NCBI RefSeq assembly: GCF_026241205.1
Contig: NZ_JAPFQM010000006.1
Span: 558,001-622,000, forward strand
Direction of reading: 5' to 3'
Source: Thermomicrobium sp. 4228-Ro
GTDB lineage: Bacteria > Chloroflexota > Chloroflexia > Thermomicrobiales > Thermomicrobiaceae
DNA: 64,000 bases
This document shows positions 37-53,532 of this stretch, piece by piece; position 1 is the stretch's first letter, and each line of letters starts with the position of its first letter. Both the position numbers and the translations under genes were made by a program. Under the pieces are notes generated by a model, which saw only the letters and a list, made by a program, of their open reading frames with translations, was not told the origin of the DNA and did not search any database.

Positions 37-95
37 GGGCGCGGCACGCCTCGCCCCTACAAGGGAATAGCGGGCGACGCACGCGTCGCCCCGAC
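37..95 (-). repeat. REP-like palindromic units, cluster A
   Basis: Two 24-nt units lie here at 37-60 and 72-95, both in minus orientation. Read on that strand they begin GTAG and GTCG, then GGG, followed by a palindrome with a GT centre. The first has one stem mismatch and the second is perfect (GGGCGACGC / GCGTCGCCC). They belong to the family seen in clusters at 8.0, 34 and 53 kb. The rest of 1-213 contains a further degenerate palindrome near 106-126 and no gene I can support. Confidence 0.75.
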
Positions 96-241: not shown

Positions 242-284
242 CTCGGAATGAGGCGTGAAAGCAGCGGGCGAAGGGGGTACCAGC

Positions 285-8376: not shown

Positions 8377-8686
8377 GGCGACGACGGGAATCGACGGTTG
8401 CAGGTGGACGATGTATCGGGAACCTCCCCTGAGCGGCCACACCCATTTCTCTCGTCGGGGCGCGGCCTGCTGCGCCCGTCCGCACCGCCCCGTGCGGGGT
8501 TATCCCGGCCGGCCCGCACCGTACTGCCAGATCCCTCTGCGCCGGGCCGCTGGTTGCTCCCTCTCTCGTGGGTGTGGGAGATCCGGGCCACAGGTTTTGT
8601 GGTTCGTGGGGTAAGGAGCACTGACCCGTGCCGGAACGCCGGTGGGCGAGAGGAAAACGGTGCGACTTCGACCCCTCAGCTCCCTC

Positions 8687-8769: not shown

Positions 8770-9141
8770 ATGAACCCGCCGATCACACCAGTTCCACCGA
8801 TCGGCCCGAACGAACCGGGTCCAGTCGAAGAGGCAGCGCCACTCCAGCCGGTCAAGCCGGTGGAACCGAACGTGCCGTCGTCTGGTACGGCGAATCGTGG
8901 AGCGGAATCAGCCGGGAAGCGCGACGTCATTCCTGCGCATCGGGTCGACCTGAGTCTCGACCCCCAGCTGGTGCGGAAGATCCCGCGCGACGTCTATCTC
9001 CGGTACTACGTCCGCCCCGGGATCGGGAACTGGGTCGTCCAGCTGATCGACCGGGAGACGCAGGAAGTGATCCGCGAGATCCCGCCCGGTGGTCTCAAGG
9101 AGTTCCTGCAGCAGCTGGCCGAGCAACGGGGGCAGGAGTGA
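8770..9141 (+). CDS. flaG: FlaG family flagellar protein
   Basis: Small flagellar protein of the FlaG family, which influences filament length and is usually encoded beside fliD. I use the ATG at 8770 (123 aa, GAGGGA upstream). An in-frame GTG at 8728 would add 14 residues but has poor spacing. The first half is Pro-rich and probably disordered. The second half carries the family signature: a basic helix, then VVQLIDRETQEVIREIPP and a C-terminal helix (about residues 90-118). It is the first gene after the sigma-28-like promoter, 46 nt before fliD. Confidence 0.85.
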   Translation: MNPPITPVPPIGPNEPGPVEEAAPLQPVKPVEPNVPSSGTANRGAESAGKRDVIPAHRVDLSLDPQLVRKIPRDVYLRYYVRPGIGNWVVQLIDRETQEVIREIPPGGLKEFLQQLAEQRGQE

Positions 9142-9187
9142 ACGGGCGACTGCCAGAACGCAGCGGCGCGCTGGAAAGGGGTCAGCG

Positions 9188-34017: not shown

Positions 34018-34697
34018 TAGGGTCGAGGTGTGCGTCGCCCGCATTCCCGTGTCGGGGCAACGCGTGCGTCGCCCGTGGGACACCCCTCACCCCCGCCTCG
34101 CTCCGCTCGGCACCCCCTCTCCCGCACCGTGCGGGAGAGGGGGCCGGGGGTGAGGGTTACACGCGGGTCGGGCACGCCCGACCCCTACAGGAAGGGCTGT
34201 GGCCGGTGGAGTGCAGGTCGGCGGCATGCAGGCGGCCGTCGGCAATGCGTGTCTCCCGGTCGAACAGCCCTCACCCCCGCCGCTACCGCGGCACCCCGTC
34301 CACGCTCTCCCTGTAGGGGCGACGCACGCTTCGCCCGCGCCGCAAGCCGCGGCAAGCGAACCGCGGTGCCACGACGCGAGGCTGGACACCCCTCACCCCC
34401 GGCTCGCTCGCGCTCGCCGCCCCCTCTCCCACGCGATCGTGGGAGAGGGGGCCAGGGAGTGAGGGGGCTCGGCCGTGAACCTCGCCCGGGTGTGCGCACT
34501 GCAGGGGCGTGGTTCGGTTCCCGGCCCTCTCGGGTCGGACGGGTCACGCACGCGTGACCCCTACAGAGGGCGGCGGTGGTCGGGGCAGGGTACCGGTGGT
34601 CGATGGGCAGGCGACCGTCGGCAACCCACAGCACCCGCGTAGGGGCGACGCACGCGTCGCCCGCATTTCCGGTGTAGGGGCGCGGCGTGCCGCGCCC
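34018..34697. repeat. REP-like palindromic units, cluster C
   Basis: Units: 34018-34040 (degenerate), 34051-34074 (+), 34165-34188 (-, GGGTCGGGC stem), 34313-34336 (+), 34541-34564 (-, GGGTCACGC stem), 34639-34662 (+) and 34674-34697 (+, perfect GGCGCGGC / GCCGCGCC). Two long hairpins (CCCTCTCCC arms) lie near 34120-34142 and 34425-34452. More degenerate fragments extend to about 34860. The region 33819-34909 has no supported gene. Confidence 0.85.
34313..34662 (+). repeat. 350-bp direct repeat, copy 1
   Basis: Matches 53183-53532 without indels and with about 12 mismatches (about 97% identity). Both ends of the matching segment coincide with a GTAG-type palindromic unit. It contains one minus unit and one long hairpin. 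Confidence 0.85.
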
Positions 34698-34909
34698 ATT
34701 CGCACCGGATGACGCGGGCATGTTGGTGCCCCCGGCTCTGGCGGGCTGCCCGGATGACGCGCGCCCGACCCTTACCAGGAATGGTTGCAGCCGAGTAGCC
34801 CTGTTGCTGACCGCTCGCTCGTCATTGTCCGCTGAGGGTGCAGCACGCGTCGCCCATCACCGTACTCCCGTTCGACTGCTGCCTCCCTGCTTCCGGGTCA
34901 TTTCAACCC

Positions 34910-34938
34910 TTGACGGTTGCGGAAGCGCTCGGTAGACT
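34910..34938 (+). promoter_or_regulatory. Sigma-70 type promoter of the DUF4242/ABC transporter operon
   Basis: TTGACG (34910-34915), a 17-bp spacer, then TAGACT (34933-34938). The predicted transcript starts near 34945 and would have a leader of about 350 nt. Confidence 0.65.
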
Positions 34939-34944
34939 CTCTGG

Positions 34945-35297
34945 CGATACGTGAGGGAGCCGCGCAGCGCTCCGATCGGTCTAGTGGGTGACGAGGGCAG
35001 GAGCGAGCCGGATGGAGCCGCGAGGCGAACAACGCGGACGGTACGTGTGCCGGCATCGCCGATGCCGGGCTGTCGTTCCACCCTGCCCGACGATGATCGG
35101 GGTGTACTCCTATTGGCCCCGTATTTGTGACTGTCGCCCCTGAGCGAGCCTGATCTGCTCGAGCCATTGCACGTCGGAGAGCCTGCATGCGGGCTGGCAT
35201 AGGCCGTGCCGCTCCGGCGTGCAGAGCGCGTTTCCAGGTGCCGTAACTGTGGAAACGATCGGTCGGTCATGCCTGTCGAAGACGGGAGGGTAAAGGT
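34945..35297 (+). promoter_or_regulatory. Long structured 5' leader of unknown function
   Basis: About 350 nt between the promoter and the first ATG, with no gene. Perfect hairpins include an 8-bp stem at 35050-35057 with 35061-35068 (loop GCC) and an 8-bp stem at 35229-35236 with 35250-35257 (13-nt loop), the latter 40 nt before the start codon. I could not match it to a known riboswitch class. Confidence 0.4.
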
Positions 35298-35808
35298 ATG
35301 CCATTGTTCCTCGCTGAATATCGCGTCGAGGTCATCGATCGGGAGCAGTTGGAGCCAGTATTCGGGGCGATCGATGCGGCGACCCGAGCAGCTGGTGGCG
35401 AGGTGATCGAGTTCCAGGTCGGCCAGGATCTCGCGGTACTCTATGCCGTCCTGGAGCACGAGGATGGCACTGCGCTGCGCAGTGCACTCGAGCAGACTGG
35501 CATCGCACCCCAGGACTTCGCGCCGGTTCGCCTGGTGGGTCAATCGCTCGACGAGGTCAAGGCCCAGCGTGGTGCCGCGAACTACCTCGTCGAATGGGAC
35601 CTGCCAGCAGGGCTGACGATGGAGGCGTACCTGCAGCGGAAGGCCGCTCTATGCACAGGTGCCGGAAGTCCGTTTCCTCCGCACCTACGTTCGTGAAGAC
35701 ATGGCCAAGTGTGTCTGCCTCTACGCAGCGCCGGACGAGTCTGCCGTCCGCCGTGCTCGCGAGGTGGTGAGTGCACCGGTCGACCGGCTGACACGTCTGT
35801 GCTCGTGA
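35298..35808 (+). pseudogene. DUF4242-family protein gene with a single-base frameshift
   Basis: ATG 35298 has GGAGGG upstream. The first frame encodes 115 residues ending in 'VEWDLPAGLTMEAYLQRK', then continues into 17 unrelated residues and stops at 35696. Skipping one G at 35643 restores a frame reading 'PLYAQVPEVRFLRTYVRED', 'CVCLYAAPDESAVRRARE' and 'APVDRLTRL', which stops at 35808. Joined, the product would be 169 aa with a C-terminal DUF4242 (SCO4226-like, nickel-binding) domain. The rest fits so well that a recent mutation, sequencing error or frameshift product is likely. It is the first gene of the operon with the flavoprotein and ABC transporter. Confidence 0.75.
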
Positions 35809-35818
35809 GGAGGGGGCG

Positions 35819-36919
35819 ATGGTGGGGACGCTCGCTCGCCATCTCATCGATCCGACTCTGCAGGAGCGACTCGCGCCGGTGCTCGAAGAGCGAGCGCCCC
35901 GCGTCGACGCGGGTGACGTCCCGGCGCAGTCGTCGATCGATCTGCTCGTGGCCGAAGGGCTTCTCCCTGCGGTCGATCACACCGCGCCGGTTGTGCCTGC
36001 ACCGGTCGAGCTGGTTCAGGCTGGGGAACTCCTGGCCACTGTGGCCTGGTTCGACCTGGCGAGCGCCTTCTCCTTGTGGTGCCACGTGGTCACGCTCGTC
36101 TATCTCGCGTTCAGCGAGCCTGGTTCGCCGCTCCGCGAGGGCGTGTTGCCGGAACTCATCAGTGCCAGACGGTACGGCAGCACGGCACTCGCGACCGCGC
36201 TCGGTCATGTGCAGACAGGACGGCCGCTTCCGGTGACCGCGCGTCAGCGGAACGGAGCGCTGACGCTGGACGGTTTCGTTCCCTGGGCCTCGAACCTGAC
36301 CGGACGATTTCTCGTCGTGACGCCGGCCCAGGCTGCGCACGGGACGCTCGTCGTGGCGGTGCCGGGCGAGGCAGCTGGTGTCACGGTCGAGCCGTATCCT
36401 CGCCTGCTCGCACTGCAGGCGACCGCGAGTAGCTCGCTCCGTTTCGCATCGGTCGACCTGCCAGTGACCTGGGTACTGGCTCGCGACGTCCGTGCCTTCC
36501 TCCGTGTGGTCCAGCCGGCGTTTCTCGCTCTCCAGGCGAGCTTCTGCTGGGGACTGGCAGCGCGTGCCTTGAGCGAGGCACATGCTGCGCTCCGCGGTGT
36601 GAACGAGGTGTTCCGGAAGGAACTCGAGGCAGCGTGGCGAGAGGCCGAACGGCTGGCTGGTGCGCTCCGCGAGTCACTCGCGACGGCGTTGCAGCCGGTC
36701 GACGAGATACAGCGGCGCGCTGTCCTCGAACTGCGACTGGCAGCGATGCGGCTCGCCTGCTCGGCTGTGGCACTCGAAGCCAAGGTGAAGGGTGGCCAGG
36801 CCTATCGGGCCGAGAGCCCCACCGCACGTCGCCAGCGCGAGGCGGCGTTTCTCCCGATCCAGACACCGACGGAAGGACAACTACTATGGGAACTCCAGCT
36901 GTTGAACTCGTCGGCGTGA
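35819..36919 (+). CDS. Acyl-CoA dehydrogenase/DszC-like flavoprotein
   Basis: A 366-aa protein with the helical-barrel-helical plan of acyl-CoA dehydrogenases. An N-terminal helical part is followed by a middle 'LTLDGFVPWASNLTGRFLVVT' barrel region (about 147-170), a 'ASSSLRFASVDLP' strand and a long C-terminal helical domain. Members of this superfamily next to sulfonate-type transporters often act as FMN-dependent monooxygenases (DszC, SfnB-like), so oxidation of an organosulfur compound is plausible but not shown. ATG 35819 is preceded by GAGGAGGGGG. It overlaps the ABC ATPase gene by 34 nt. Confidence 0.8.
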   Translation: MVGTLARHLIDPTLQERLAPVLEERAPRVDAGDVPAQSSIDLLVAEGLLPAVDHTAPVVPAPVELVQAGELLATVAWFDLASAFSLWCHVVTLVYLAFSEPGSPLREGVLPELISARRYGSTALATALGHVQTGRPLPVTARQRNGALTLDGFVPWASNLTGRFLVVTPAQAAHGTLVVAVPGEAAGVTVEPYPRLLALQATASSSLRFASVDLPVTWVLARDVRAFLRVVQPAFLALQASFCWGLAARALSEAHAALRGVNEVFRKELEAAWREAERLAGALRESLATALQPVDEIQRRAVLELRLAAMRLACSAVALEAKVKGGQAYRAESPTARRQREAAFLPIQTPTEGQLLWELQLLNSSA

Positions 36920-37653
36920 CCAAGGTCTACGGGCACGGCCGGCGAGCCCGCGCTGTCCTGGAGGGCGTTTCGTTCGCAGTGCCAGCCGGTGCAGTGACGG
37001 TCGTGCTCGGCCCGAGCGGTGTCGGCAAGTCGACCGTGCTCCGGATCCTCGCCGGGCTCGAGTCGCCGACGCAGGGCACCGTGCGGTACCGGGAAGACCT
37101 GGATCCCCGTCGTGATGTCCGTCTCGTCTTCCAGGAGCCGAGCCTCCTGCCGTGGCTGACGGTCGCCGAAAACATCCGGCTCGGGCTGCGCTTTGCAGCG
37201 AACCGTGGACGCGTCGATGCGGACATCGTCGACCAGCTCTTGGAACGGACAGGACTGAGCGAGCTGGCCGACGCGTATCCGGATGCGCTCTCCGGTGGCC
37301 AGGCACAGCGGGTGAACTTGGCGCGGGCATTGGCGACGCTGCCGCGGCTGCTCCTGCTCGACGAACCGTTCGCTGCCCTCGATCCGCTGGCTCGCCAGGG
37401 CGCTCAGCAGTGGCTCCGCGAGCTGGTGCGTGACCTCGCGCTCACGGCGGTGCTGGTGACGCATGACCTGGACGAGGCGCTCTCGCTCGGTGACCAGCTC
37501 GTCCTGCTCGGTGGACGGCCGGCGAAAGTCATCGGCCAGTGGTGGGTGGCTGAGCATGCGCTGGATACGCTCCGACAGCTGGCCCTCGAGGGGTACGCGG
37601 TCGGACAGCAACCGACCGTGCCAGCTCGGCCCGTTTTCGTGGGGAAGAGGTGA
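36886..37653 (+). CDS. ABC transporter ATPase, NitT/TauT (SsuB/TauB) family
   Basis: 255-aa ATPase from ATG 36886, with GGAAGGA at 8 nt. All motifs are present: Walker A GPSGVGKST (about 43), Q-loop 'VFQEPSLLPWLTV', signature LSGGQAQR, Walker B LLLLDEPFAALDP and the switch His in THDLDEA. The C-terminal 40 residues extend past the usual end. It forms an importer with the binding protein and permease that follow. The start lies within the flavoprotein gene, which ties the two functions together. Confidence 0.93.
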   Translation: MGTPAVELVGVTKVYGHGRRARAVLEGVSFAVPAGAVTVVLGPSGVGKSTVLRILAGLESPTQGTVRYREDLDPRRDVRLVFQEPSLLPWLTVAENIRLGLRFAANRGRVDADIVDQLLERTGLSELADAYPDALSGGQAQRVNLARALATLPRLLLLDEPFAALDPLARQGAQQWLRELVRDLALTAVLVTHDLDEALSLGDQLVLLGGRPAKVIGQWWVAEHALDTLRQLALEGYAVGQQPTVPARPVFVGKR

Positions 37654-37656
37654 TCG

Positions 37657-38901
37657 ATGGCGCGTGCAACGCGGCGGACGTTCTTGCGGAGTGTCGTGGG
37701 AAGCCTGATCGCGGGGCCGCTCCTTGCCGCCTGTGGGAGCAGCTCGGACATACCCGCGACGGCTGCTCCGGCAGGTTCGCCCGGCCCCACCGTGATCGCG
37801 ACGGTATCCCGCTCCACGCCGGCGGCTGCGAGCGGTCGGGTGCGGATCGGCTACTTGCCGATCACCGATGCTGCACCGCTGCTTCTCGCGCACGCCAAGG
37901 GGTATTACCAGCAGCAGGGGTTGGAGGCCGATCAGCCGACGATGTTCCGGAGCTGGTCGCAGATTTCGGAAGCATTGCAGGCGCGCCAGGTGGACGTCGT
38001 CCATCTGCTCATGCCGATCAGTATCTGGATGCGGTTCGGCCAGCAGGTACCGGTGAAGCTCGTGGCCTGGGATCACGTGAACGGCTCGGCCCTGACCGTC
38101 GCCGAGCAGATCGAGCGGGTCGAGGATCTGGCTGGGAAGACGCTTGCCGTACCGTTCTGGTATTCGATTCACAACGTCCTCATCCAGATGCTCCTCGAGC
38201 GTGCCGGCCTGCAGCCGATCCTGCGCGGCGATCCTTCAGCCGACGAGCGGACGGTGAAGCTCGTCGTGATGCCCCCGCCCGATATGGCACCAGCTCTGGC
38301 CAATGGATCGATCGCCGGGTATATCGTCGCGGAGCCGTTCAATGCCCTCGCCGAGGTTCAGGGAGCGGGGAAAATCCTCCGCTTCAGCGGCGATGTCTGG
38401 CTCGACCATGCATGCTGTGTCGTCGTGATGCACGAAGAGGACGTGGCGACACGGCCGGAATGGGCGCAGGCGGTGGTCACCGCTATCGTGCGGGCGCAAC
38501 GGTTCGCGCGCGAGAACCGAGCGGAGGCTGCTCGACTCTTGGTGAAGGAGGGCGATCGAGGCTACCTGCCGCAGCCGCTGGAGGCGATCGAGCGGGTGCT
38601 CTCGGATCACGAGCACGACCGGTACGTCCAAGAAGGCGTGATCCGCCACCCGGAGTGGGGTGCGCAGCGCATCGATTTCCGCCCCTACCCGTTCCAGTCC
38701 TACACAGAGGCGCTCATCGAGCATCTGCGGCGGACGCGCGTCGAGGGGAATGCAGGGTTCCTGGCGACGCTCGATCCGGCCTCGGCGCATGCTGAACTCG
38801 TCGACGACCGGTTCGTCCGTCAGGCGCTCGAGGCTGAAGGAGGGCCAGCCGTCTTCGATCTCCCGGAAACGTTGACGCGGAGCGAACGGATCGAGCCATG
38901 A
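37657..38901 (+). CDS. ABC transporter substrate-binding lipoprotein, NitT/TauT family
   Basis: 414-aa extracytoplasmic receptor. The N-terminus RRTFLRS followed by LLAAC (Cys about 26) suggests a Tat-exported lipoprotein. A Pro/Thr/Ser spacer leads to the NMT1-like binding domain ('RVRIGYLPITDAAPLLLAHAKGYYQQQGLEAD'). The ligand is probably a sulfonate, nitrate-like or thiamine-precursor-like compound and cannot be fixed by eye. It starts 3 nt after the ATPase stop and overlaps the permease by 4 nt. Confidence 0.9.
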   Translation: MARATRRTFLRSVVGSLIAGPLLAACGSSSDIPATAAPAGSPGPTVIATVSRSTPAAASGRVRIGYLPITDAAPLLLAHAKGYYQQQGLEADQPTMFRSWSQISEALQARQVDVVHLLMPISIWMRFGQQVPVKLVAWDHVNGSALTVAEQIERVEDLAGKTLAVPFWYSIHNVLIQMLLERAGLQPILRGDPSADERTVKLVVMPPPDMAPALANGSIAGYIVAEPFNALAEVQGAGKILRFSGDVWLDHACCVVVMHEEDVATRPEWAQAVVTAIVRAQRFARENRAEAARLLVKEGDRGYLPQPLEAIERVLSDHEHDRYVQEGVIRHPEWGAQRIDFRPYPFQSYTEALIEHLRRTRVEGNAGFLATLDPASAHAELVDDRFVRQALEAEGGPAVFDLPETLTRSERIEP

Positions 38902-39713
38902 AGCAGGTACGGCTTCTTCGTGATGCGATGCTCCCGTTCGTCGGACTCACCGTCGTCGGAGTTCTCTGGTGGTTCCTGACCGATGTCGCTGCTGCTCCCG
39001 GTTCGTTCACGAGCCGGTTCGCGCCTGGTCCAGCCTTTCGGGCGCTCGGCGAACTCGTGACCAGCGGGGCGCTGTGGCCGCACGTCCTCGCCAGCGCAGA
39101 GCGTGTCGCTCTGGGCTTGCTCGTGTCGGCGGCGCTCGGTATTCCGTTGGGAGTCGCGATCGGCAGTATCCGCTGGGTCGGCCGGATGCTCGGTCCGGTG
39201 ATCCAGGTGCTCCGGATGGTGTCGCCGCTCGCTTGGATGCCGCTCGCCTTGCTCGTTTTCGGTACGGGGACGCGCTCGGTCGTCTTCCTCCTGGTCATGG
39301 CGGCGACCTGGCCGATCTTGCTCAGTACGGTCGACGGTGTGGCGCGGCTCGATCCACGCTGGTCGCAAGTCGGGCGGAGTTTGGGTGCCTCGCGCTGGGA
39401 ACTCGTGCGGCATGTCGTCTGGCCGGGGGTGCGACCGCGCGTGCTCGCCGGACTCCGCCTGGCCGTCGGAGTCGCCTGGATCGTGTTGGTACCGGCTGAG
39501 ATGCTCGGTGTCGACTCGGGGCTCGGGTACGCTATCCTCGACGCACGTGACCGCCTGGATTACGGAGAGTTGATGGCGATGCTCCTCGTCATCGCGATGT
39601 GCGGGATCGTGCTCGATGGGGTGGCACGTTTCCTCTTCCGTGAAGCGCGCCCGCGAGCGCGGCGTGTGCTGCGGCCCATACCGGAGATGGCGGTGGTCGA
39701 ACAGCGAAGTTGA
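38898..39713 (+). CDS. ABC transporter permease, NitT/TauT (SsuC/TauC) family
   Basis: 271-aa membrane permease with about six segments. The cytoplasmic EAA loop is visible: 'GRSLGASRWELVRHVVWPGVRPRVLAGLRLAVGVAW' around residues 157-192. ATGA overlap with the binding-protein gene. It is the last gene of the operon that starts with the DUF4242 gene, and is convergent with the lipoprotein gene 7 nt away. Confidence 0.92.
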   Translation: MKQVRLLRDAMLPFVGLTVVGVLWWFLTDVAAAPGSFTSRFAPGPAFRALGELVTSGALWPHVLASAERVALGLLVSAALGIPLGVAIGSIRWVGRMLGPVIQVLRMVSPLAWMPLALLVFGTGTRSVVFLLVMAATWPILLSTVDGVARLDPRWSQVGRSLGASRWELVRHVVWPGVRPRVLAGLRLAVGVAWIVLVPAEMLGVDSGLGYAILDARDRLDYGELMAMLLVIAMCGIVLDGVARFLFREARPRARRVLRPIPEMAVVEQRS

Positions 39714-39720
39714 CGGTGGT

Positions 39721-40680
39721 TCAGCGGGAAGCGAGCGGGAACGATGCTACAGCGTCCCACTCCTCAGGGCAGGATCCCGCTCGCGCGTCCGGTTTCGGGG
39801 GAACGAAGCGCCATTCCCCGTACGGTGAGATGCAGAGCGTGGTTGGCTCTCCTGTAGCGAGAACCGCCAGCGCTTCGGCCACGCAGCTCGTATAGTCGCG
39901 TTCCGGGCAGTGTGCTTCGATGGTGCTGCGGGTGTCGGCTGCAGTCGGTGGAGGGGGTGCGAGAGCAGGCACGCGCGCGTCGATACGGCGGAGCAGGAGT
40001 GCCGCGAGCGACTCGGTCCGTTCGCGAGCGCCAGCGCAACTGGCTGGATCGGTCGGATCGCAGGCAGCGGTGATGGAGACGGCAGCGACGACGGTATCGC
40101 GTCGGAACCAGAGGGTCAGGCGAGCGAAGCTGGGAATCACTGCCGGAGCGAGCAGAAGTACGCTCTCGTCCCCACGTCCACGATGGGGAAGGCGCTGGCC
40201 TGGCGACGCGCTCGTGAGAGCCTGGAAGGCGGCGTGCGCGCCGGCCTGGCTCGCGAAGAGATCGAGTCGGCAGCTGGCTGCACTGAAGGGTGCCTGTTGC
40301 CGTTCGGCGTGCGCCCGAGCCAGCGCCTGCTCGAGTTCGTCCTGGGTGAGAAAGCCGTCGGCATCCTCTGCTGGCATGCTGGGTGGCTCGTACGCGTACT
40401 GCAGCCAGGCGCCGTTCAGCCGCTGCCAGGCCTGGCTGTCCTCCAGCGCGATCGATGGTGCGGGATGTTGGCTTGCCGACCGGTTGTCGATGATCTGCCT
40501 GGCGAGAACTTCGAAGTGGGGCGGCAGATGCTCGATGCCGAAGCAGGTGTCGCGGGCGAGCAGGCCCGCCTCGCTCGCGTATGCCGGACCGGTCCCAGCC
40601 GGTCGAGCCGAGCTGCAGGCCACGAGGAATGCTGTACTCGTGACGAAGATCACGAGCGCGAATGTTCTACGAGCGTCCAC
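39721..40680 (-). CDS. Putative lipoprotein of unknown function
   Basis: 319 aa from GTG 40680 with a GGGGGA site. The signal peptide ends in the lipobox LVAC (Cys about 22). The mature part has four or more Cys residues and no domain I know; it includes an acidic stretch 'AEDADGFLTQDELEQAL' that reads like a calcium-binding loop (EF-hand-like DxDxDG is not complete). It starts 14 nt before the upstream gene ends and is the seventh and last gene of the surface-glycan operon. Confidence 0.7.
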   Translation of the reverse strand: MDARRTFALVIFVTSTAFLVACSSARPAGTGPAYASEAGLLARDTCFGIEHLPPHFEVLARQIIDNRSASQHPAPSIALEDSQAWQRLNGAWLQYAYEPPSMPAEDADGFLTQDELEQALARAHAERQQAPFSAASCRLDLFASQAGAHAAFQALTSASPGQRLPHRGRGDESVLLLAPAVIPSFARLTLWFRRDTVVAAVSITAACDPTDPASCAGARERTESLAALLLRRIDARVPALAPPPPTAADTRSTIEAHCPERDYTSCVAEALAVLATGEPTTLCISPYGEWRFVPPKPDARAGSCPEEWDAVASFPLASR

Positions 40681-43549
40681 GTGAAATCCCCCAAGCCCAG
40701 GTGCGGTTTCCTGTGTCAGTACCGCTCTCGGCTGAACGGACGATCAGATCATCGACGAGCACCACCGCACGAGGTGTGCCGTCGGTCTGGCCGATGACGA
40801 TGGTCACGTAGTCCGTCTCTGTAAGTGGGATCGTGAGAAGCTCGATTCCCTCGTCGAGCGTTGCTTCGTCGTGACAGGTGACCGCCCAGACCTGGTTCGG
40901 GCGGATGTCGAGGAGACAGTCATACCACGTGCCGATTGCGATGATCTGCTGACTCGACACGACGACGGAGCCAGCCCGAAACGCGAGCCGGCCAGAGGAG
41001 GTGAGGCCGAGCGCGATAGGCGTGTCACCGGAAGCAGTGGCGAGTGCGAGGAGTCGCACCGGTGCTGGCCCCTGATCGAGCAGTTGGAACCGGAAGCGGA
41101 CGGTGAAGTCACTTCGGGGGGTCGGGAGGGAGCGCAGGACAGCCGCAGCAGCGTTCCGCAGTTCCAAGCGGAGTACACGGTTGCTGATCGCGCCGCTGTG
41201 GGACTGGATCGAGACACCCCCCACCGTGTCCCAGTTGACCAGCGTGCCCGTCTCGAAATCATCGGCGAGCTGGATCGCCGGTGGGACGGAGACAGTGACC
41301 GGTGTACTCGCGGGCGAACGAGCGCCCGCGAGGTCGATCGCGCGGACCGTGTACGCGTACCGGCTCCCAGGTCGCATGGAGCGGTCGCTGTAGCTCGTTG
41401 CTGCACCGACGAAAGCGAGTGGTTTCCCGTTCCGCTCGACCACGTAGCGGAGGGGGCGATCGCGCGCGGTCGGTGCTTGCCAGCTGAGCGTCACAGCGGT
41501 GCGCTCGACTGCGGTGACGGCGAGTGCGGCGGGCGGGTGAGGCGTCGGTCGTACCAGGGATACCGGTCGGGGGGCGAACACGAGCACGAGATCGGCAGTC
41601 GAGGCCGGCTGCACGAGAGCGAGGGCGTACGGTGGGTCGTGTAGGGGTGGTGGAAGTCGAACGCCAGCGAAGTCGAGTTCGGCGGGTCGATCGGTCTCGA
41701 ATGCGAGGGATACCCGTGCGGCTGCTGGCGCCGAGAGGGTTACGAGCAGGGCCTCGACGAGCGGGTCCCACTCGGCGGCGACGATCCCACGTGTTGTCGC
41801 GACTGTGAAGCCATGCCCACCGGGAATCTCGATGCTCTCGGTATGGAGTCGGTAGGACGAGGGCAGTCCAGGAACGTCGCGGAAGACGAGCGGCTGTGTC
41901 ATGGCGACGATCGTCCCGCTCCTGTCGAGGAGTTCGGCGCGGAGCACGGTTAACGGGCCGTCGAGCGGAAGGTCGATGGCCAGATCGGCGCCGTGGCCGC
42001 TCAGTGTCTCCTCTCGCCAAAGGGTGCCGTTCCGAATCCAGCGAAGCCGAGCGGCTGAGGGGATCCGGTCAGTGATGCGGAGGAAGATCGCCGTCGTTGC
42101 ACGCTGGTCTGAGACGAAGATCGGGTAACGTGCCGGATATGGGGCCTGTGGTGCGGCGAATGGGCTGAGCAAGATCGTGCCGGTGAACGTATTGCGAGCG
42201 AGGAAGCTCCGCCCCTCGTACAGCGCGCTGACGATCGCGTCCAAGCTGTTCGTCCTCGCGAAGACGAACGTCGCCGGGTTCCCTGGATCGATCAGTTCGT
42301 GGCTGTCCGTGCCCCAGGACCCGAGGAGCGGTACTTCACGGAGGAGGAGTTCGTCCCAGAGGGCTGCCCATTCTGGCTTCCGCACTTCGATAAAGTCCGC
42401 GCCATACGCGCGTTCTTCGCGAATCTCGGAGAGACGGACCGTCGAGCCCGGGTGATTGAGCTGAGCAGGGTAGCCCGCGTTGTGGACGAGCGGGATGCCG
42501 TCCGTGCCGAAGCGAAAGCTGGTGAATTCCTCTGGGTGCTCGATGGCGAAGTCGAAGCGGATCGTGTGTCGTTGCTGGCCCATCTCCTGTGCGCAGAACA
42601 CGCGGAACGAGTCGCTGCTGAAGGTGTGGCAGAGCTGGCTGCGAGCGACGAATTCATCCGCTGGGGGGAGCGGTCGCTGTGCCTCGAGGACAACGGCATC
42701 GACCGAGAGGTCAGCCGAACCGGCGTGGGCCGAGAGTCGCAGCGTCGGATAGAGGAAAGCAGCGAACGGGTGTGGTCGCTCGTTCGCTGGGAGCTGGGCG
42801 AGCGCCGCGGTGACGTCGATGGTGTACACTGTCCACTCGTTCGCTCGTGGTTCCGGTAGCGGGAAGACGATCACGCGCTGCGCTGGTTCCGATGCGGGGA
42901 GAACGGGGTTTCCGAGGGTCCAAGCGAAGGTCACGCCCCGATCGAGCAGCACCTCACCCGACGCTGTCGTATAGCCGATCGTCGATCCGATTTCCGGGTC
43001 ACCGCCGAGCGACACCGTGGCAGCGAACCCGGTTTCGGGGTCGAAATGGCGGACGAGAACAGCGAAGGAAAGGATGACCGGCCCTGCGGTCACGAGCGGG
43101 CCGCGCCGTGCCCACAGCCCGATGGTCCCGGCCGATGGTGAGGAGAGTGCGAGACGAAAAGCGCGAACACCCTGGTAGGCCGTGTCGTTTTCCATGGTTG
43201 CGGCGGAGGTCGATACCACACCGCGTCGGAAGACTTTCCAGCCACGATCGTCCTCGTCGAGGGTACGACGGTTCGCGGTGTGGCCGTCGATCTGGTACGC
43301 GCTGCCCTCGTTGTGATCGGTGAGGAAGACCGCATCGTAACCGAGCCGACGAGCGGCCGCCGCGAGTACGCCGACGTCGGCGACGGCGTCAGCGCTGAAC
43401 GCGGAGTGGACATGGGTCTCGATCTTGAGCCGACGATGCGACAGGTTCGCATCAGCCTCGGCAGCAGCGCGGCGTGGCATCGCCAGTGGTTGGGGCACCA
43501 TCGTGAGGAGGATGAGCAGCAGGGCCAAGGTGAGTGCGCACCGCTTCAC
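40667..43549 (-). CDS. Secreted PHP-domain hydrolase with fibronectin III and C-terminal lectin-like domains
   Basis: 960 aa with a signal peptide (about 1-30). A PHP metal-dependent phosphoesterase domain begins 'LKIETHVHSAFSADA' (about 41) and 'DAVFLTDHNEGS' (about 73), then is interrupted by an inserted beta-rich segment (about 110-290) before 'GSWGTDSHELIDPG' (about 435). A fibronectin type III domain (about 685-770) and a concanavalin-type beta-sandwich (about 775-950) complete it. It probably acts outside the cell on a phosphorylated substrate (inference). It overlaps the GH99-like gene by 4 nt. Confidence 0.8.
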   Translation of the reverse strand: MKRCALTLALLLILLTMVPQPLAMPRRAAAEADANLSHRRLKIETHVHSAFSADAVADVGVLAAAARRLGYDAVFLTDHNEGSAYQIDGHTANRRTLDEDDRGWKVFRRGVVSTSAATMENDTAYQGVRAFRLALSSPSAGTIGLWARRGPLVTAGPVILSFAVLVRHFDPETGFAATVSLGGDPEIGSTIGYTTASGEVLLDRGVTFAWTLGNPVLPASEPAQRVIVFPLPEPRANEWTVYTIDVTAALAQLPANERPHPFAAFLYPTLRLSAHAGSADLSVDAVVLEAQRPLPPADEFVARSQLCHTFSSDSFRVFCAQEMGQQRHTIRFDFAIEHPEEFTSFRFGTDGIPLVHNAGYPAQLNHPGSTVRLSEIREERAYGADFIEVRKPEWAALWDELLLREVPLLGSWGTDSHELIDPGNPATFVFARTNSLDAIVSALYEGRSFLARNTFTGTILLSPFAAPQAPYPARYPIFVSDQRATTAIFLRITDRIPSAARLRWIRNGTLWREETLSGHGADLAIDLPLDGPLTVLRAELLDRSGTIVAMTQPLVFRDVPGLPSSYRLHTESIEIPGGHGFTVATTRGIVAAEWDPLVEALLVTLSAPAAARVSLAFETDRPAELDFAGVRLPPPLHDPPYALALVQPASTADLVLVFAPRPVSLVRPTPHPPAALAVTAVERTAVTLSWQAPTARDRPLRYVVERNGKPLAFVGAATSYSDRSMRPGSRYAYTVRAIDLAGARSPASTPVTVSVPPAIQLADDFETGTLVNWDTVGGVSIQSHSGAISNRVLRLELRNAAAAVLRSLPTPRSDFTVRFRFQLLDQGPAPVRLLALATASGDTPIALGLTSSGRLAFRAGSVVVSSQQIIAIGTWYDCLLDIRPNQVWAVTCHDEATLDEGIELLTIPLTETDYVTIVIGQTDGTPRAVVLVDDLIVRSAESGTDTGNRTWAWGISRGRS

Positions 43550-46757: not shown

Positions 46758-48136
46758 CAACGAGGTCCTTTCGTGTCGTATCGCGATGAGCGGAACCGCC
46801 TCGGGAGCCAGTTGCTCACAAAACGGAGCCGTCCGGTCGGGACGAGGAACGCGACGATACCGATACCTGTGACGAGACTGTAGACCCCGTACACAGCGCT
46901 CCGGCGCGGTTCTGGGGCCGGCGGTGGGGTTGGCCAATCCCACGGGATGAACACCGGCGCTCGGGGCGGGCTCTCGAAATCGAAGGCGTTCGCGAGACTC
47001 GTCGCCGCAGCATCGCGTGCGGCGAGCGGCTCGAGGTTCCAGTTCTCCTCGATGAACTTGAGGATCGACGTGAAGTCATAGGTCGTCGAGTCGATGAAGC
47101 CGCGCTTCGCGTAGGGACTCACGAGGAAGGCAGGGACACGGAAGCCGTAGCCGTAGTCATCCACCTGGGGAGGCGGCACGTGATCGTACCAGCCGCCCCA
47201 GTCGTCGTACGTCACCATGAAGGCCGACTGGTGCCAAGAGGGGCTGCGCATGAGGGCCTGGATGAGCGATCGAACGAAGCGCTGCCCGGCCTGGATGCTG
47301 CCCGGTGGGTGCTCGCTCGCACCGGAGGGGACGATATAGGCGACTTCGGGGAGCGTCCCGTTCTGGAGGTCGGTGAAATACTCGTCCAGGGGCACGATAT
47401 GACGGAAGAGGTCGGGATCGTCCAGATAGCGTGGCATCGCGAGCAGTGGACACCAGACGACCTGGGCAGCGCGTGGGCCGGCGATTTCGGTGCGTGTCCG
47501 GTAGGTGATCGAAGGATCGTAGTTCTGGATGTAGAACTTCCAGGTGATCCCGGCTTCCTCGAGACGATCGAAGATCGTCACGATGTCGTTCGGAAAGCCA
47601 TCGGCCGGGATGCTGTTTTTGTCGCTGCCCGGAACGCCGGCGATCCAATACATGTGGTTCCAAACACTCCCGCCGTGGGCTGAACTGAAGAAGCGATCGA
47701 AGAGGACGTATTCGCTGGCGAGGTTCCAGTAGTACGGGAGATCGCGTCCGTCGTAGTACCCCATCGCGATGCGCCCGTCCTGATTGCGTAGGCGGAGCGC
47801 CCAGATGAAGCCATCCATGCGCCCACCGTTGTGCTGGCGACGGAACGTGATGCTGCTGTGGTCGAGATCCTCGATCGGGAGACTACCGATATGGAAGGGT
47901 TCGACGCACTCGCTTGCAGGATCCGTCGGATCGAGCGGCATGCAGGTCTCGGGCGGAAGCCCGTCGGCGCCGGGATACGTCCCGAAGTAATTATCGAACG
48001 TGTGGTTTTCCTGCATGAGCACGATGAAGTGGCGGATCGGTGTATTGGGTTCACGTCGCGCAGCGGAAGCTGATGCCGATGCGAGTGTAATCGAGCACAG
48101 CGCTGCGAGCAGGAGCGCGATGCGGAGTCCAGTCAT
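46757..48136 (-). CDS. Secreted phosphoesterase (phospholipase C / acid phosphatase AcpA family)
   Basis: 459 aa from ATG 48136. Signal peptide (about 1-27). The phosphoesterase-family signature is clear: 'IRHFIVLMQENHTFDNYFGTYPG' (about 34-56), 'SSAHGGSVWNHMYWIAG', 'FMVTYDDWGGWYDHVPPP' and 'GFRVPAFLVSPYAKRGFID'. A C-terminal membrane segment (about 425-445) anchors it. The substrate may be a phospholipid or a phosphorylated surface glycan. It shares one base with the following gene and four with the preceding one. Confidence 0.87.
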   Translation of the reverse strand: MTGLRIALLLAALCSITLASASASAARREPNTPIRHFIVLMQENHTFDNYFGTYPGADGLPPETCMPLDPTDPASECVEPFHIGSLPIEDLDHSSITFRRQHNGGRMDGFIWALRLRNQDGRIAMGYYDGRDLPYYWNLASEYVLFDRFFSSAHGGSVWNHMYWIAGVPGSDKNSIPADGFPNDIVTIFDRLEEAGITWKFYIQNYDPSITYRTRTEIAGPRAAQVVWCPLLAMPRYLDDPDLFRHIVPLDEYFTDLQNGTLPEVAYIVPSGASEHPPGSIQAGQRFVRSLIQALMRSPSWHQSAFMVTYDDWGGWYDHVPPPQVDDYGYGFRVPAFLVSPYAKRGFIDSTTYDFTSILKFIEENWNLEPLAARDAAATSLANAFDFESPPRAPVFIPWDWPTPPPAPEPRRSAVYGVYSLVTGIGIVAFLVPTGRLRFVSNWLPRRFRSSRYDTKGPR

Positions 48137-49794
48137 GGGCGCACCTCGTAGATCACCATAACGGGTAAGTCGATCGGCTGGCCCTCCGCATCGACTGTCC
48201 GGATGCTTTCGGTATGGACGACACGGCCGTGATACCGTCGGGCATAGGTGAGGAGTTTCTCGGAGAAGAACGTCGAACGGTTGGCCGAATAGGCATCCCA
48301 AACGATGTATTGGATCTCTCCATTGCGCAGTCGGAGATCAGGATTGACGACGGGTTCATAGGTCGGATTTCGATGCAGCGGGTTTGGACTCACCGAAAGC
48401 CCGTACGCTTTACGATGCCCGTAAAACTGGAGGATGTTCGCCATCGACGGGCCGATGGTGAGCAACTGCGCTCCCTCAGGCGTGTGTGTGCCGACCCATG
48501 CTCCGGCCTCACGACCGCCCGGGACTCCCCCCGAGCCCGCCAGGAAGGTCCCGTTCGTCGCTGCCCGGAGTTGTGTTGTCGTCGTGAAAGCGAGCGAGGC
48601 AGCGACGAGCAGCGTGGTGGCAACCCCAGCCACCCGGCGCCAGCGGGGTCGGCTGTGCAGTGTCGCCCCGGGTTGCGTCGAGCCCAGTGCGAAAAGGCGG
48701 CCGAGCGTGCGGGCAGCGAGGATCGCGACAGCGGGCGCGGTGGCGACCAGATACGGGAAGCCCTTCGTGGGCCAGACCTGGAAGAAGGCGAAGGGTACGA
48801 CGATCCAGGTCACGAGCAGCGTCTCGCGCCAGCTCCAGACGCGTCGTACCGCGAACAGACCGATGACTGCCAGGCCGACGATCGCCAAACCGAGGGCCGG
48901 TGGAATCGTCCACAGGTAGAACCACCATTCGTGGTTCGGCCGGCGGAAGAGCTGCCAGACGAGATACTGAGTGGTTCGCTCTGTACCGCTGCCACCGGCA
49001 AGGAGAGCCGTGAGCGGGTGCAGAACGACGACGCAGGCGAACGCAGCGAGCGCTCCCACCAGGTGACGGGAGTGGCTGGACAGTTCGGCGTGCAGTGCGA
49101 GCGTCACGATCATCGCACCCAAGAAGATGACTGCGGTTTCCTTGGTCAGCACCGCGAGGCCGAGTGCGACGCCACTGGCGAGCAGCCAGCTCGACCGGCG
49201 TGTGGCACCGTAGTGAACGAGCGCGAACAGGCTGAGCGTGACGAAAAAGGCCAGCGGGCCGTCGAGGAGTGCCTGCCGCGTCACGACGACGTGATACGGC
49301 ATCAGGGCGAGGAAGAGGGCCGCAGTAGCGCCGACCCAGCGACCGAAGAGCACGCGTCCAGTGCCGAACGTCACGGCGACGGTGGCGAGCCCGAACGCGA
49401 CGACCAGCAGGCGACCCACGAGGTCGAGGCCCTGGTAGCCGACGAACGGGATAGTGAGCGACGTGACGAACGGAAAGAGCAGCGGGTGGGCCCGGAAAAG
49501 CGGGAAGAAGCGACTGAGCATCGGTTCGTCCGCCAATGCCGCTGCTTGTCCGAGATAGACCGCTTCGTCGCTGTTGACCCCGTGGAGATTCAGCTGCCAG
49601 AGGCGGAGGAGCGCGCCGACGATGAGCGCTACAGCGAACAAGGCGGCAGGACCCAGACGGTCGAACAGCGAACGAGATGTCCGGGGAGCGTGAGATCGGA
49701 GTGCCGAGCGAGGACTCTTCGCGCGTGAGTGCAGACGGGCTGACCCAGTCTCGCGCTGGACGTTGGTCATGGTCAGTGTGCGGAGGATGTTCAT
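48133..49794 (-). CDS. GT39-like membrane glycosyltransferase
   Basis: 553 aa from ATG 49794, which overlaps the previous stop as ATGA; ATG 49770 is possible too. About 10-11 membrane segments. The first extracytoplasmic loop has 'GVNSDEAVYLGQAA', the acidic site typical of ArnT/PMT-type enzymes that use a polyprenyl-phosphate sugar donor. 'RQALLDGPLAFFV' and 'LTKETAVIFL' also fit. The C-terminal part is extracytoplasmic. The upstream GT2 gene could make the lipid-linked sugar donor for it. Confidence 0.87.
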   Translation of the reverse strand: MNILRTLTMTNVQRETGSARLHSRAKSPRSALRSHAPRTSRSLFDRLGPAALFAVALIVGALLRLWQLNLHGVNSDEAVYLGQAAALADEPMLSRFFPLFRAHPLLFPFVTSLTIPFVGYQGLDLVGRLLVVAFGLATVAVTFGTGRVLFGRWVGATAALFLALMPYHVVVTRQALLDGPLAFFVTLSLFALVHYGATRRSSWLLASGVALGLAVLTKETAVIFLGAMIVTLALHAELSSHSRHLVGALAAFACVVVLHPLTALLAGGSGTERTTQYLVWQLFRRPNHEWWFYLWTIPPALGLAIVGLAVIGLFAVRRVWSWRETLLVTWIVVPFAFFQVWPTKGFPYLVATAPAVAILAARTLGRLFALGSTQPGATLHSRPRWRRVAGVATTLLVAASLAFTTTTQLRAATNGTFLAGSGGVPGGREAGAWVGTHTPEGAQLLTIGPSMANILQFYGHRKAYGLSVSPNPLHRNPTYEPVVNPDLRLRNGEIQYIVWDAYSANRSTFFSEKLLTYARRYHGRVVHTESIRTVDAEGQPIDLPVMVIYEVRP

Positions 49795-52097
49795 CGGGCA
49801 ATCCGCTGCTCGGTCGGCGAGACAGTGAATGGGATCAGTACCTCGGGCTCGGTTCGGAACGCTTCGAATCCGACCCAAGATGCGATCGTTCGCCACCAAT
49901 CGAGCTGTGGGCGTCGGAAGAGCTGGCAGGTCGTCCCCTGCAGCGCGCTGGCGAGCGTCTGGCGTTCGACACTGCTGAGATCTTTCCCGAGTGGTCGCGA
50001 GAGATAGTCTCGGAGAGCTGGATACGGCGGGAAGCCGTAGGCATCGTCCCCATTCGCCAGGAGGATCTCCAGCGCCTCGTCCAGGTCGAGCGGACGGGCT
50101 GCTTCATCCGGCCCTCGCTCGATGACGATGACGTGGGCAAGACGTGCACTGGCTCGTCGCTGCACGTGCGGGATCAGTTGTTCGATATGGTACTTGGGTG
50201 GCGGAACGAGCCACTGCATGTACAGATTGATCGTCGCGACTGGAAGGCGCGTCGAGGCTAGGAGCATGGCGAAGCGACGACCGGAGCGGGAGTGGATGCG
50301 GCTCTGGACGAAGAGCGCCAGCCGCTGTCCGAGTGTCAGCTGAGCAGTCCGTACTGCAGCCACCGTGTGTCGGCTGATCGTGAGCGGCTTCGGATAGGAG
50401 AGTACCAGCCCGTCAGCGCGCACGAGCGTGAGGTCGTCGGCGAGGAACGCGCCTTGATCGCTCGACCGGCGCTGCCGCTGGAGCAAGCGCAGGATCGTCG
50501 TCGTTTTACCGGTGTCGGTTCGGGCCGTTACCAGTGTGGCGCGGTCACCCTTGCTGATGCAGGCAGCGTGGACCAGAGCATAACCATGCCGGGCGGACGT
50601 CCAGCGCAAGATCGGCTCGAGCACGTTCGTGTAGAGCACGTGCGGAGAGTGCCGCAAGGCAGGCGAGACGGTGATGCGGATCGGCTCGGCGAGATCGGCT
50701 TCGAACCAGAAGCCGAAGGGACCGAGCCCATCGTCGTACCGAATCCTCCGTGGCTGCTCAGTACTCGGCGCAACATCGACCCAACCGAAGCGACCGATCG
50801 GCCCAGGCGAACGGCGACCACCGACCTCGATCGTGATGTCCGGCTGCTCCACGGTCTCGACGCGGAAGCGCTCGAGTTCCGGTAGCCGGACGGGGGACTG
50901 GACGCGGAGAAGGCTGTGCAGATCGTACGCGTACGTGCGCCGTTGCGTCGGCCAGATCCAGGCTGTTGCCATACCGAAGCGCAGGATCGCGAGCGCGCCG
51001 AGCGAGATGATGTTCGACAAGAGGTAGTAGATACCGACGTACGAAGTGAGGAGGACGAGCAGTGGCCCGCGCACGAGGAGTCCAACGATGTTGGCTGCCG
51101 TGAAGAGCGAGAGCCGTGTCGCCCAGCGTCGTCCGGAGCGCCGGTCGGGAAAGACGAACCGGTCGGTGAGCGCGTAGTTCCAGAAGCTCGAGACGAGGGT
51201 AGCACCGGCTGCACCGATCAGATAGTGGAGCTGGCCGAGTTCGACCAAACCCAGGAGTGCCAAGGTGTTCACGACGAGACCCGTCGCGCCGACAGCCGCG
51301 AAACCAGCGAAGCGAGCGCGTTCCTCGCCGAGTCGCAGAGTCGCTAGATGTCCGAGATAGCGAAAGCCTTCACGGAGGTTCGCCTTGCTCTGTCCGGCAT
51401 GACGGTGACCGAAGATGTAGCTCACCTCGCTCACGCGCAGCTGAGGATGGCGCACGAGGATCTCGAGCAAGATCTTGAACCCGCGTGGACGTAACGTCTC
51501 GATCTGAAGCCGTTCGCGGCGGACGACGAAGAAGCCACTCATCGGATCGGTGACGCTCCGCAGTCGGAGGGGGAAAGTCAAGCGAGCGATGGTCGTGGAG
51601 GCACGCGAGAGAGCCAGACGGAACACGTGCAGCCCTCGTGCTTGACCGTCGTCGCGGTAACGTGAGCCGACGACGAGATCGACCCCGTAGAGCTGCGCGG
51701 CAGCCAGGAAACGTGGGACAAGCTCCGGCGGATGCTGCAGGTCGGCATCCATCACGCCGACCCACTCGCACTGCGCGGTGCGGAGCCCGGCCAGGACAGC
51801 ACCGCCCAGACCCCCGTCGCGGGTGCCAGGTGGGCGATGGATGAGCCGGATCCGTCCGTCGCGGGCAGCCTGTGCGGTGACGTGTTGCGGCGTGTCGTCG
51901 TCGCTGTCGTCGACGAAGATGACCTCCGAGCCGGGTGGAAGCTGGGGCAACAGGCGCGCCAACAGCGGCTCGATGTTGTCAGCCTCGTTCCGCGTGGGAA
52001 CGATCACGCTGACTGGGGGAAGTGCTGCGGGCGGGGCCTCGAGGACTGCTGCTGGTTCGGTGGCGGTCGCCGAGCCCTGCTGGTGTGTCTTCATCAT
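49791..52097 (-). CDS. GT2 (dolichyl-phosphate-sugar synthase-like) + GtrA + HPrK-like P-loop fusion protein
   Basis: 768 aa from ATG 52097 with GGAGGG at 7 nt. Domain 1 (about 28-265) is a GT2 transferase of the polyprenol-phosphate sugar synthase type: 'SVIVPTRNEADNIEPL', 'VIFVDDSDDDT', 'VGVMDADLQHPPE' and 'DPMSGFFV'. Domain 2 (about 266-390) is a GtrA-like four-helix membrane part. Domain 3 (about 430-690) contains 'LVTARTDTGKTTTILRLL' near residue 540, a P-loop as in HPr-kinase-like proteins, though the first Gly is replaced by Ala. The first two domains often co-occur; the third is unexpected. It is the first gene of the seven-gene operon. Confidence 0.85.
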   Translation of the reverse strand: MMKTHQQGSATATEPAAVLEAPPAALPPVSVIVPTRNEADNIEPLLARLLPQLPPGSEVIFVDDSDDDTPQHVTAQAARDGRIRLIHRPPGTRDGGLGGAVLAGLRTAQCEWVGVMDADLQHPPELVPRFLAAAQLYGVDLVVGSRYRDDGQARGLHVFRLALSRASTTIARLTFPLRLRSVTDPMSGFFVVRRERLQIETLRPRGFKILLEILVRHPQLRVSEVSYIFGHRHAGQSKANLREGFRYLGHLATLRLGEERARFAGFAAVGATGLVVNTLALLGLVELGQLHYLIGAAGATLVSSFWNYALTDRFVFPDRRSGRRWATRLSLFTAANIVGLLVRGPLLVLLTSYVGIYYLLSNIISLGALAILRFGMATAWIWPTQRRTYAYDLHSLLRVQSPVRLPELERFRVETVEQPDITIEVGGRRSPGPIGRFGWVDVAPSTEQPRRIRYDDGLGPFGFWFEADLAEPIRITVSPALRHSPHVLYTNVLEPILRWTSARHGYALVHAACISKGDRATLVTARTDTGKTTTILRLLQRQRRSSDQGAFLADDLTLVRADGLVLSYPKPLTISRHTVAAVRTAQLTLGQRLALFVQSRIHSRSGRRFAMLLASTRLPVATINLYMQWLVPPPKYHIEQLIPHVQRRASARLAHVIVIERGPDEAARPLDLDEALEILLANGDDAYGFPPYPALRDYLSRPLGKDLSSVERQTLASALQGTTCQLFRRPQLDWWRTIASWVGFEAFRTEPEVLIPFTVSPTEQRIAR

Positions 52098-52377
52098 GGA
52101 CAAACCCTCCCTCTGGGTAGGTGTTGGTCAGACCGTCGGAGCCGGGCACGGATCGACCGTTCTCTGCTGTACGGTGGAGCTGCGTGTCGCGGAGCATCCG
52201 GAACGGGGATGATCGTGCAGTGGACGCGTTGGGCCGCAGCCCTTCCCTTCTCCGTGTCGGCTCGTTCACACGATCGACACAACTGAGGATGACGGAAACG
52301 GTGGCGAACTACCAGCTCATTGGTTTCTCGGGACGTGCTCGTTGGGTGCTCACCTGTTACTCAGCGGTGACTTGGGA

Positions 52378-52506
52378 TCAGCTCGCTGAGGGGCGGAACG
52401 TGAGCCAGAGAAGCACAGCGATACCCGCGCAGGCGAGGATCAGGAAGCCGAGAAGGAGGGCCACTGCCAGGAGTACCGCTCGATCGAAGTCGTCACCGGT
52501 TCGCAT
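52378..52506 (-). CDS. Possible small single-pass membrane protein
   Basis: 42 codons from ATG 52506: eight polar residues, a long hydrophobic stretch (about 9-35) and a short basic tail. The ribosome site is weak (GGAACG). It lies between the surface-glycan operon and repeat cluster D, with nothing else in 52098-52788 that I can support. It could be a chance hydrophobic frame. Confidence 0.35.
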   Translation of the reverse strand: MRTGDDFDRAVLLAVALLLGFLILACAGIAVLLWLTFRPSAS

Positions 52507-52788
52507 CGGGTCGTTCCGTTCGCAGTCGACCGCACGTTCGTCTGATCCTAGCACGGGTTCCGTATCGAAAGCGTGCGTGACCGGTGAGCGAGCAGAGCGT
52601 CGTGTGAATCGTGCCCGAACAGTTGGTTGCAGACGGTCGGGATGCTCCGCATCGTCGGTTGAACGGCCGCGTCTCGCATGACATGAGACGATCACTGCGC
52701 GGTGTTCAGCAACGCGCCCTCGGGTCGCTGACTGGTGCGCGAGCCGCACGCTGCCGAGCACGGTGTCAGGACGTTCTCCGTTTTCCCT

Positions 52789-53532
52789 GGTAGGGGCGAC
52801 GCGTGCGTCGCCCGCATTCCCGTGTAGGGGCGCGGCGTGCCGCGCCGGATGGCGTGGGAAGGATGTCATTTCCCGGCCCTTGCGGGCCGGCCGGGTCAGG
52901 CACGCCTGACCCCTACCGGGATGGCGGTCGTCTGTGCGGCCCCGGTGGGCGATAGGCAGCCGACCGTCGGCAAAGGGTGCCGTCGTTTCCCCCTGTAGTG
53001 GCGACGCGTGCGTCGCCCGTCCGCGCCGGGAGGCACGGGCATGCACCGCGGGGTACGGTTCCGGCCCTCTCGGGCCGGGCGGGTCAGGCACGCCTGACCC
53101 CTATAGGGACGATGGTAGCCAACGGGGCGGCGGTGGGCGATCGAGAGGCGACCGTGGCCAACTGGGCATGCGCGTTTCCCGTGTAGGGGCGACGCGTGCG
53201 TCGCCCGCGCCGCAAGCCGCGGCAAGCGAACCGCGGTGCCACGACGCCAGGCTGGACACCCCTCACCCCCGGCTCGCTCGTGCTCGCCGCCCCCTCTCCC
53301 ACGCGATCGTGGGAGAGGGGGCCAGGGAGTGAGGGGGCTCGGCTGTGAACCTCGCCCGGGTGTGCGCACTGCAGGGGCGTGGTTCGGTTGCCGGCCCTCT
53401 CGGGCCGGACGGGTCACGCACGCGTGACGCCTACAGAGGGCGGCGGTGGTCGGGGCAGGGTACCGGTGGTCGATGGGCAGGCGACCGTCGGCAACCCACA
53501 GCACCCGCGTCGGGGCGACGCGTGCGTCGCCC
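52789..53532. repeat. REP-like palindromic units, cluster D
   Basis: Eight units: 52789-52812 (+), 52823-52845 (+), 52893-52916 (-), 52995-53018 (+, GTAGTGG variant), 53081-53104 (-), 53183-53206 (+), 53411-53434 (-) and 53509-53532 (+, GTCG). A long hairpin (12-bp arms) lies at 53293-53320. Between minus and plus units a shared spacer motif recurs (GGTGGGCGAT ... GGCAACC-like, for example near 52945-52975, 53127-53160 and 53463-53500). Confidence 0.88.
53183..53532 (+). repeat. 350-bp direct repeat, copy 2
   Basis: Second copy of 34313-34662: same orientation, no indels, about 12 mismatches. It starts and ends with a plus-oriented palindromic unit. The copies lie 18,870 bp apart. Confidence 0.85.

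Follow-up and report, generated by a model that had tools for sequence, protein, structure and literature searches.

The window analysed here, a stretch of 64,000 nucleotides (G000:C6:558001-622000), comes from a 3.07-Mb Thermomicrobium genome with main contigs of 2.05 Mb and 0.91 Mb. Its chemotaxis and flagellar genes are largely collinear with the megaplasmid NC_011961.1 of the congener Thermomicrobium roseum, the replicon that carries the chemotaxis and flagellar genes of that species (PMC2615216). A tRNA search of the 64-kb window found none. Direct reading of the sequence confirmed some 20 hairpin units headed by GTAG or GTCG, present in all four of the clusters in which an earlier note on this DNA had placed them. 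The stems of these units fall into two classes, GGGTC (T) and GGGCG (C), which are strand-locked within clusters.

Cluster 1 (37..95, - strand) comprises two C-class units, at 37-60 and 72-95, and forms the right end of a longer cluster whose start lies outside the window, about 0.8 kb upstream. It sits between the orthologues of hyp10180 and MCP1, an intergenic site at which T. roseum also has a cluster, and its downstream neighbour encodes a methyl-accepting chemotaxis protein (255..2390, + strand; Pfam PF00015). Cluster 2 (8041..8477), flanked by an MCP gene and the FlaG and FliD genes, consists of a degenerate T-class unit at about 8041-8063 and of T- 8064-8087, C+ 8168-8191, T- 8353-8376 and C+ 8454-8477 (class, strand and position). 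FlaG (8824-9138) lies between this cluster and FliD (9089..11164, + strand; Pfam PF07195/PF02465, tblastn). No REP was found at the T. roseum site matching cluster 2 (MCP, FlaG). Cluster 3 (34018..34697) contains a degenerate C+ unit at 34018, followed by C+ 34051-34074, T- 34165-34188, C+ 34313-34336, T- 34541-34564, C+ 34639-34662 and C+ 34674-34697, and cluster 4 (52789..53532) contains C+ 52790-52813, C+ 52824-52847, T- 52893-52916, C+ 52995-53018, T- 53081-53104, C+ 53183-53206, T- 53411-53434 and C+ 53509-53532. Within cluster 3, a second palindromic repeat, read at 34084..34156 (CTCACCCCC ... CCCTCTCCC ... GGGAGAGGG ... GGGGGTGAGG), lies in the gap where a C-class and a T-class unit meet tail to tail; there are further copies at about 8206-8276, 34387-34466 and 53258-53337. 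One part of this repeat, GGGGTGAGGG, gave 68 genome matches, most of them within REP blocks; another, GGGGTGAG, fits GGGGWSAS, a motif reported for the TIRs of TIRYT genes.

Read from the GTAG side, each unit has GTAG or GTCG ahead of a hairpin with a 9-bp stem, GGGnnnnGC, the two arms of which are joined by a 2-nt loop that is GT or, rarely, AC. The head and the centre were as previously proposed, but the GGG is not separate from the palindrome: it forms the base of the stem and pairs with the terminal CCC. Across 209 units, the head was GTAG in 127 and GTCG in 41, and the loop GT in 182 and AC in 10. A loose hairpin rule matched 24 times in the window, whereas 20 copies randomised by a first-order Markov model averaged 4.0 matches, and every exact GTAG or GTCG unit of the window fell inside the four clusters. 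Searches of the literature with the unit sequence, and of Rfam, returned no match.

Compensated stem variants had been noted in the window, and were confirmed, though the count of five stems was too low, a sixth (GGGCGAGGC) being common elsewhere in the genome. That both arms change together was established by a covariation count on 71 distinct units, in which 94.5% of cells were paired. Double-change cells numbered 98, against 37.2 +/- 3.6 in shuffles (0/500 shuffles reached 98), a count that does not represent independent events, since many of these cells go back to a small number of changes passed on to numerous copies. When the partner column was slid by 1-3 positions, double-change cells fell to 4-14 and the signal was gone. 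Changes on both sides occurred at 4/9 stem pairs, and those four positions alternate between different Watson-Crick pairs.

The two stem classes follow a strict pairing rule. In the stretches fetched, neighbours less than 400 bp apart differed in class when on opposite strands (104/109) and agreed when on the same strand (37/41). The association of class with strand was strong (Fisher p ~4e-25, a value that overstates the evidence because copies made together are not independent), and one strand per class was obeyed by 178/184 units across 34 clusters; the rule held across separate locations, and in T. roseum as well. Inverted pairs, as first read from the window, were borne out as dimers with their GTAG ends facing each other. 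Gaps between facing GTAG ends were mostly 67-80 bp, those between tails peaked at 52-57 bp and close tandem units lay 10-11 bp apart; as in BIMEs, REP orientation alternates with conserved spacers. Each class also has its own tail hairpin, CCGGCCC/CCGGGCC (CCGGSSC) at T units (43 clear cases) and CCGCGCC at C units (36), with no crossing between them; at a randomly chosen position, such a hairpin would turn up in 4% of cases. In T. roseum, tail hairpins were found beside T-class units 20 times and beside C-class units 25 times. The class-bound tails and tight gaps together therefore define a repeated module of ~177 bp with four hairpins. By dimer alignment, one complete copy occupies 34520..34662, with a T-class tail hairpin, a T-class REP (-), a ~74-bp spacer and a C-class REP (+). 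A consensus fold of the whole dimer supported only the two REP hairpins, the spacer showing no common fold.

Genome-wide, the pattern GTMGGGGYSRSGCRYGCSYSRCCC (<=1 mismatch) gave 77+66 = 143 matches, a minimum for the genome, and its reversed control 0. Spread was uneven: units were grouped in blocks at few places, on both the chromosome and the megaplasmid, namely at ~953-1053 kb on C1 and near 24, 264, 334, 408-432, 490-501 and 543-630 kb on C6. With units masked, REP-rich stretches mostly had a GC content of 0.68-0.72 and most sampled chromosome stretches 0.62-0.67; some REP blocks were of ordinary GC, the window itself being at 0.665. The GC-rich blocks lie at 950-1030 kb on C1 and at 400-440, 480-500 and 540-558 kb on C6. 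As a separate observation, sampled GC skew switches sign at ~1.05-1.10 Mb on C1, beside the end of the chromosomal REP block; dnaA (1.83 Mb) and parB (1.97 Mb) lie away from this switch, and no placement of the blocks at an origin or terminus was drawn from it.

The units share the features of the GTAG REP super-family: an unpaired GTAG (GYAG and GTMG variants) directly at one end of a stem-loop, a stem of 6-13 bp with a short loop and complementary stem changes (here 9 bp and 2 nt), and high copy number, mostly intergenic and often as dimers. The supposition that no such family had been described in this lineage proved wrong, since Di Nocera et al. (2013, PMC3733652) had already published one from T. 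roseum under the name GTAG-23. In their description, GTAG-23 is found on the two replicons, grouped in blocks at a small number of loci and lying inside CCGSSCC...GGSSCGG palindromes. Judged from sequence, the hairpins studied here belong to this published family, an identity that rests on the description in that paper and on T. roseum megaplasmid DNA rather than on the consensus in its Figure 1. Blocks like those of GTAG-23 were seen on C1 and C6, and the units are set within CCGSSCC(n3,4)GGSSCGG, represented by the CCGGCCC and CCGGGCC tail hairpins beside T-class units. Shared between the two are the genus, the GTAG tag, the stems GGGTCAGGC and GGGCGAGGC, occurrence on both replicons, a block-wise grouping at few loci, CCGSSCC palindromes on the flanks, and heterodimers. 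To the account in PMC3733652, the present analysis adds the two-class pairing rule with class-specific tail hairpins, the comparison between species and the RAYT survey of the genus and its relatives.

A covariance-model search of the relatives had been suggested; the model built here gave 59 matches on NC_011961.1 and none in the near-complete congeners G002, G004 and G006, which likewise lacked the pattern, though units of the T. roseum type score only ~33 bits, close to the threshold that applies to a genome of 3 Mb, and a variant family could be missed. Besides the host genome, the REP-bearing genomes of the genus were G001 and G005. The NC_011961.1 units show the same T and C stems, alternation and tail hairpins, and lie between annotated CDS except for an overlap with one 63-aa hypothetical. 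The two species differ in their loops. In T. roseum, most loops are of 3 nt (GCT, GGT; 51/59 units, 43 of them perfect), with 2-nt loops in 8 units, 0 perfect (p ~6e-6), and the spacer is different; in the host genome, 169/173 loops are of 2 nt (GT), and there are extra stems GGGCGACGC, GGGCGCGGC and GGGTCACGC and more GGGTCGGGC. The 2-nt-loop units of T. roseum include a cluster upstream of parA, where the spacer resembles that of the host genome.

Intergenic sites occupied in both species were LUD|PucR, PucR|PilZ, PilZ|flagellin, hyp|CheB, hyp|MCP and hyp|parA, while Sortase|hyp was occupied only in T. roseum and MCP|FlaG only in the host genome. A newer module subfamily may have replaced an older one at old T. 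roseum sites, or both may have inserted independently in the same long gaps. A REP cluster stands directly upstream of the megaplasmid parAB in both species (L044:14449-15073 and NC_011961.1:744569-744953).

No transposase had been seen in the window, and this finding now extends to the genus: neither PF01797 nor NF047646 matched in seven genus genomes, two of which are incomplete MAGs (54% and 62%). In these seven, the T. roseum chromosome lying outside the search, no RAYT with GTAG-hairpin flanks was found, and thus no cognate RAYT flanked by the same REP. In the super-family such an arrangement is frequent but not obligatory, and PMC3733652 accepts that REPtrons may be missing. Within the class, NF047646 matched in 102/150 genomes drawn. 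The flanks of most class-level RAYTs carried other repeats and no GTAGGGG hairpins.

Closer relatives provided the exceptions. In G015, from a sister genus in the same family, a RAYT gene (L070, G015:C43, ~7008-7388, - strand) has GTAGGGGCGGGGCTTGTCCCCGCCC on both flanks, as an inverted pair on one side; GTAGGGGCGGGGCTTGTCCCCGCCC matched 51 times over many G015 contigs, and 1-2 times at most in G015 congeners. This gene has TAG where the tyrosine of YxxxN is expected, which may reflect recent loss of function as a pseudogene or a mistake in the assembly; PMC6006769 names N119 of E. coli TnpA-REP. Its hairpins resemble those of the host genome in taxonomic family, GTAGGGGCG head, near-perfect stem and inverted dimers, but differ in their stem (GGGCGGGGC), loop, dispersed copies and the presence of a RAYT gene. 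G010 has an intact RAYT frame (HUH + YILGN) with GTAGGGGTC- and GTAGGGGCG-headed hairpins upstream, whose heads carry the same class-defining bases as the units studied here, and G025 has a RAYT with GTAGGGATGGGGC hairpins on both flanks. The proposal that GTAGGG-headed hairpins would be RAYT partners in this order is supported by these loci, and does not imply action on the Thermomicrobium units. CT directly preceded GTAG in 63/154 good units, against a 5% background. For E. coli TnpA-REP in vitro, CT is the cleavage dinucleotide with GTAG as guide, and features of the single-stranded hairpin give strand specificity (PMC8266576). The enrichment is compatible with RAYT cleavage or transposition.

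An orphaned RAYT-type REP/BIME family, GTAG-23, kept and re-amplified at old intergenic sites, is very probably the best account of these data. The REP-like, GTAG-guided reading offered in the earlier note is upheld, as are its compensated stems and inverted pairs, and the family is ordinary in kind. The BIME-like module consists of a GGGTC-class and a GGGCG-class REP in inverted orientation, GTAG ends facing over the 67-80 bp spacer, each with its tail hairpin. Its past mover was presumably a RAYT (HUH/Y1 transposase) acting by single-strand recognition and copying through the GTAG guide and the hairpin structure, with GTAG directing cleavage at a nearby CT, if the in vitro TnpA-REP work (PMC8266576) applies. 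The RAYT would then have been lost and the modules have persisted as orphans at few intergenic sites, where later amplification, conversion or replacement of whole modules may have given each species its own loop type. At present, the units may serve as transcribed hairpins. The absence of a RAYT from the seven genus genomes leaves current mobility unsupported. In G015 the REPs are dispersed, whereas here they are confined to blocks, a pattern more readily explained by local amplification than by free transposition.

Local copying could have done all the work: a single ancestral module of ~177 bp would have given rise to the clusters through tandem duplication and gene conversion, and any transposition would predate the genus. 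This is possible but doubtful. Whole-module copying would account for the class-strand locking and for the constant spacing of 67-80 and 52-57 bp, and the block-wise distribution agrees with it, but blocks are found on the chromosome and the megaplasmid alike and at many distinct intergenic sites, and plain duplication would not spread the T. roseum subfamily, with its 3-nt loop and different spacer, to the many sites where it is found. Retention chiefly for control at the RNA or DNA level, as terminators, mRNA stabilisers or sites for gyrase or nucleoid proteins, with mobility as ancient history, seems unlikely as the principal explanation. Such a role would suit the stem pairing maintained through double changes, the sites common to two species, including that upstream of parAB, and the lack of a resident transposase. 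However, recently duplicated copies keep their pairing without selection. Furthermore, G002 and G006 hold orthologous chromosomal-block genes with few GTAG hairpins, of a different kind (100 kb read, mostly around these genes), and the units are therefore dispensable there. Arrival of the REPs with GC-rich foreign DNA as horizontal islands would account for the GC content of most REP-rich stretches, but is improbable and was not favoured: block genes are matched in REP-poor congeners, gene order in the megaplasmid block largely follows that of T. roseum, and some REP blocks are of ordinary GC.

For an orphaned family, homogenisation may have proceeded by wave-like replacement, in which a new module subfamily took over old fixed sites in one lineage, leaving imperfect copies of its predecessor behind, with no resident RAYT detected. 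We put this forward only tentatively; if true, it would suggest either a route independent of RAYTs or a short-lived period of RAYT activity. Related species with common REP sites and differing unit type, together with sister genera that retain RAYTs with similar hairpins, offer a natural comparison, making testable the question of how REPs persist and are homogenised after transposase loss.

The arrangement resembles the E. coli BIMEs, with their alternating y and z REPs, in its two REP classes, alternating orientation, fixed spacers and tandem repeats, and differs in having no bulged stem, no RAYT found and a tail hairpin added to each REP. Pseudomonas REPINs are RAYT-related, inverted REP pairs copied as a unit and thought to be moved by the resident RAYT. 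The inverted REP pairs are a shared feature; the block distribution, and the failure to find a resident RAYT, set the Thermomicrobium units apart.

In other members of the class, the RAYT genes L095 and L096 (in G098 and G089) are flanked by GTAGCACAGGATTAATCCTGTGC hairpins, which represent another GTAG REP family. Among the matches listed for GTAGGGGYSRSGCGTGCSYSRCCC, often several per genome, were Anaerolineales, Zixiibacteriota, Francisellaceae, Deinococcales, Gemmiger, Planctomycetota and other groups.
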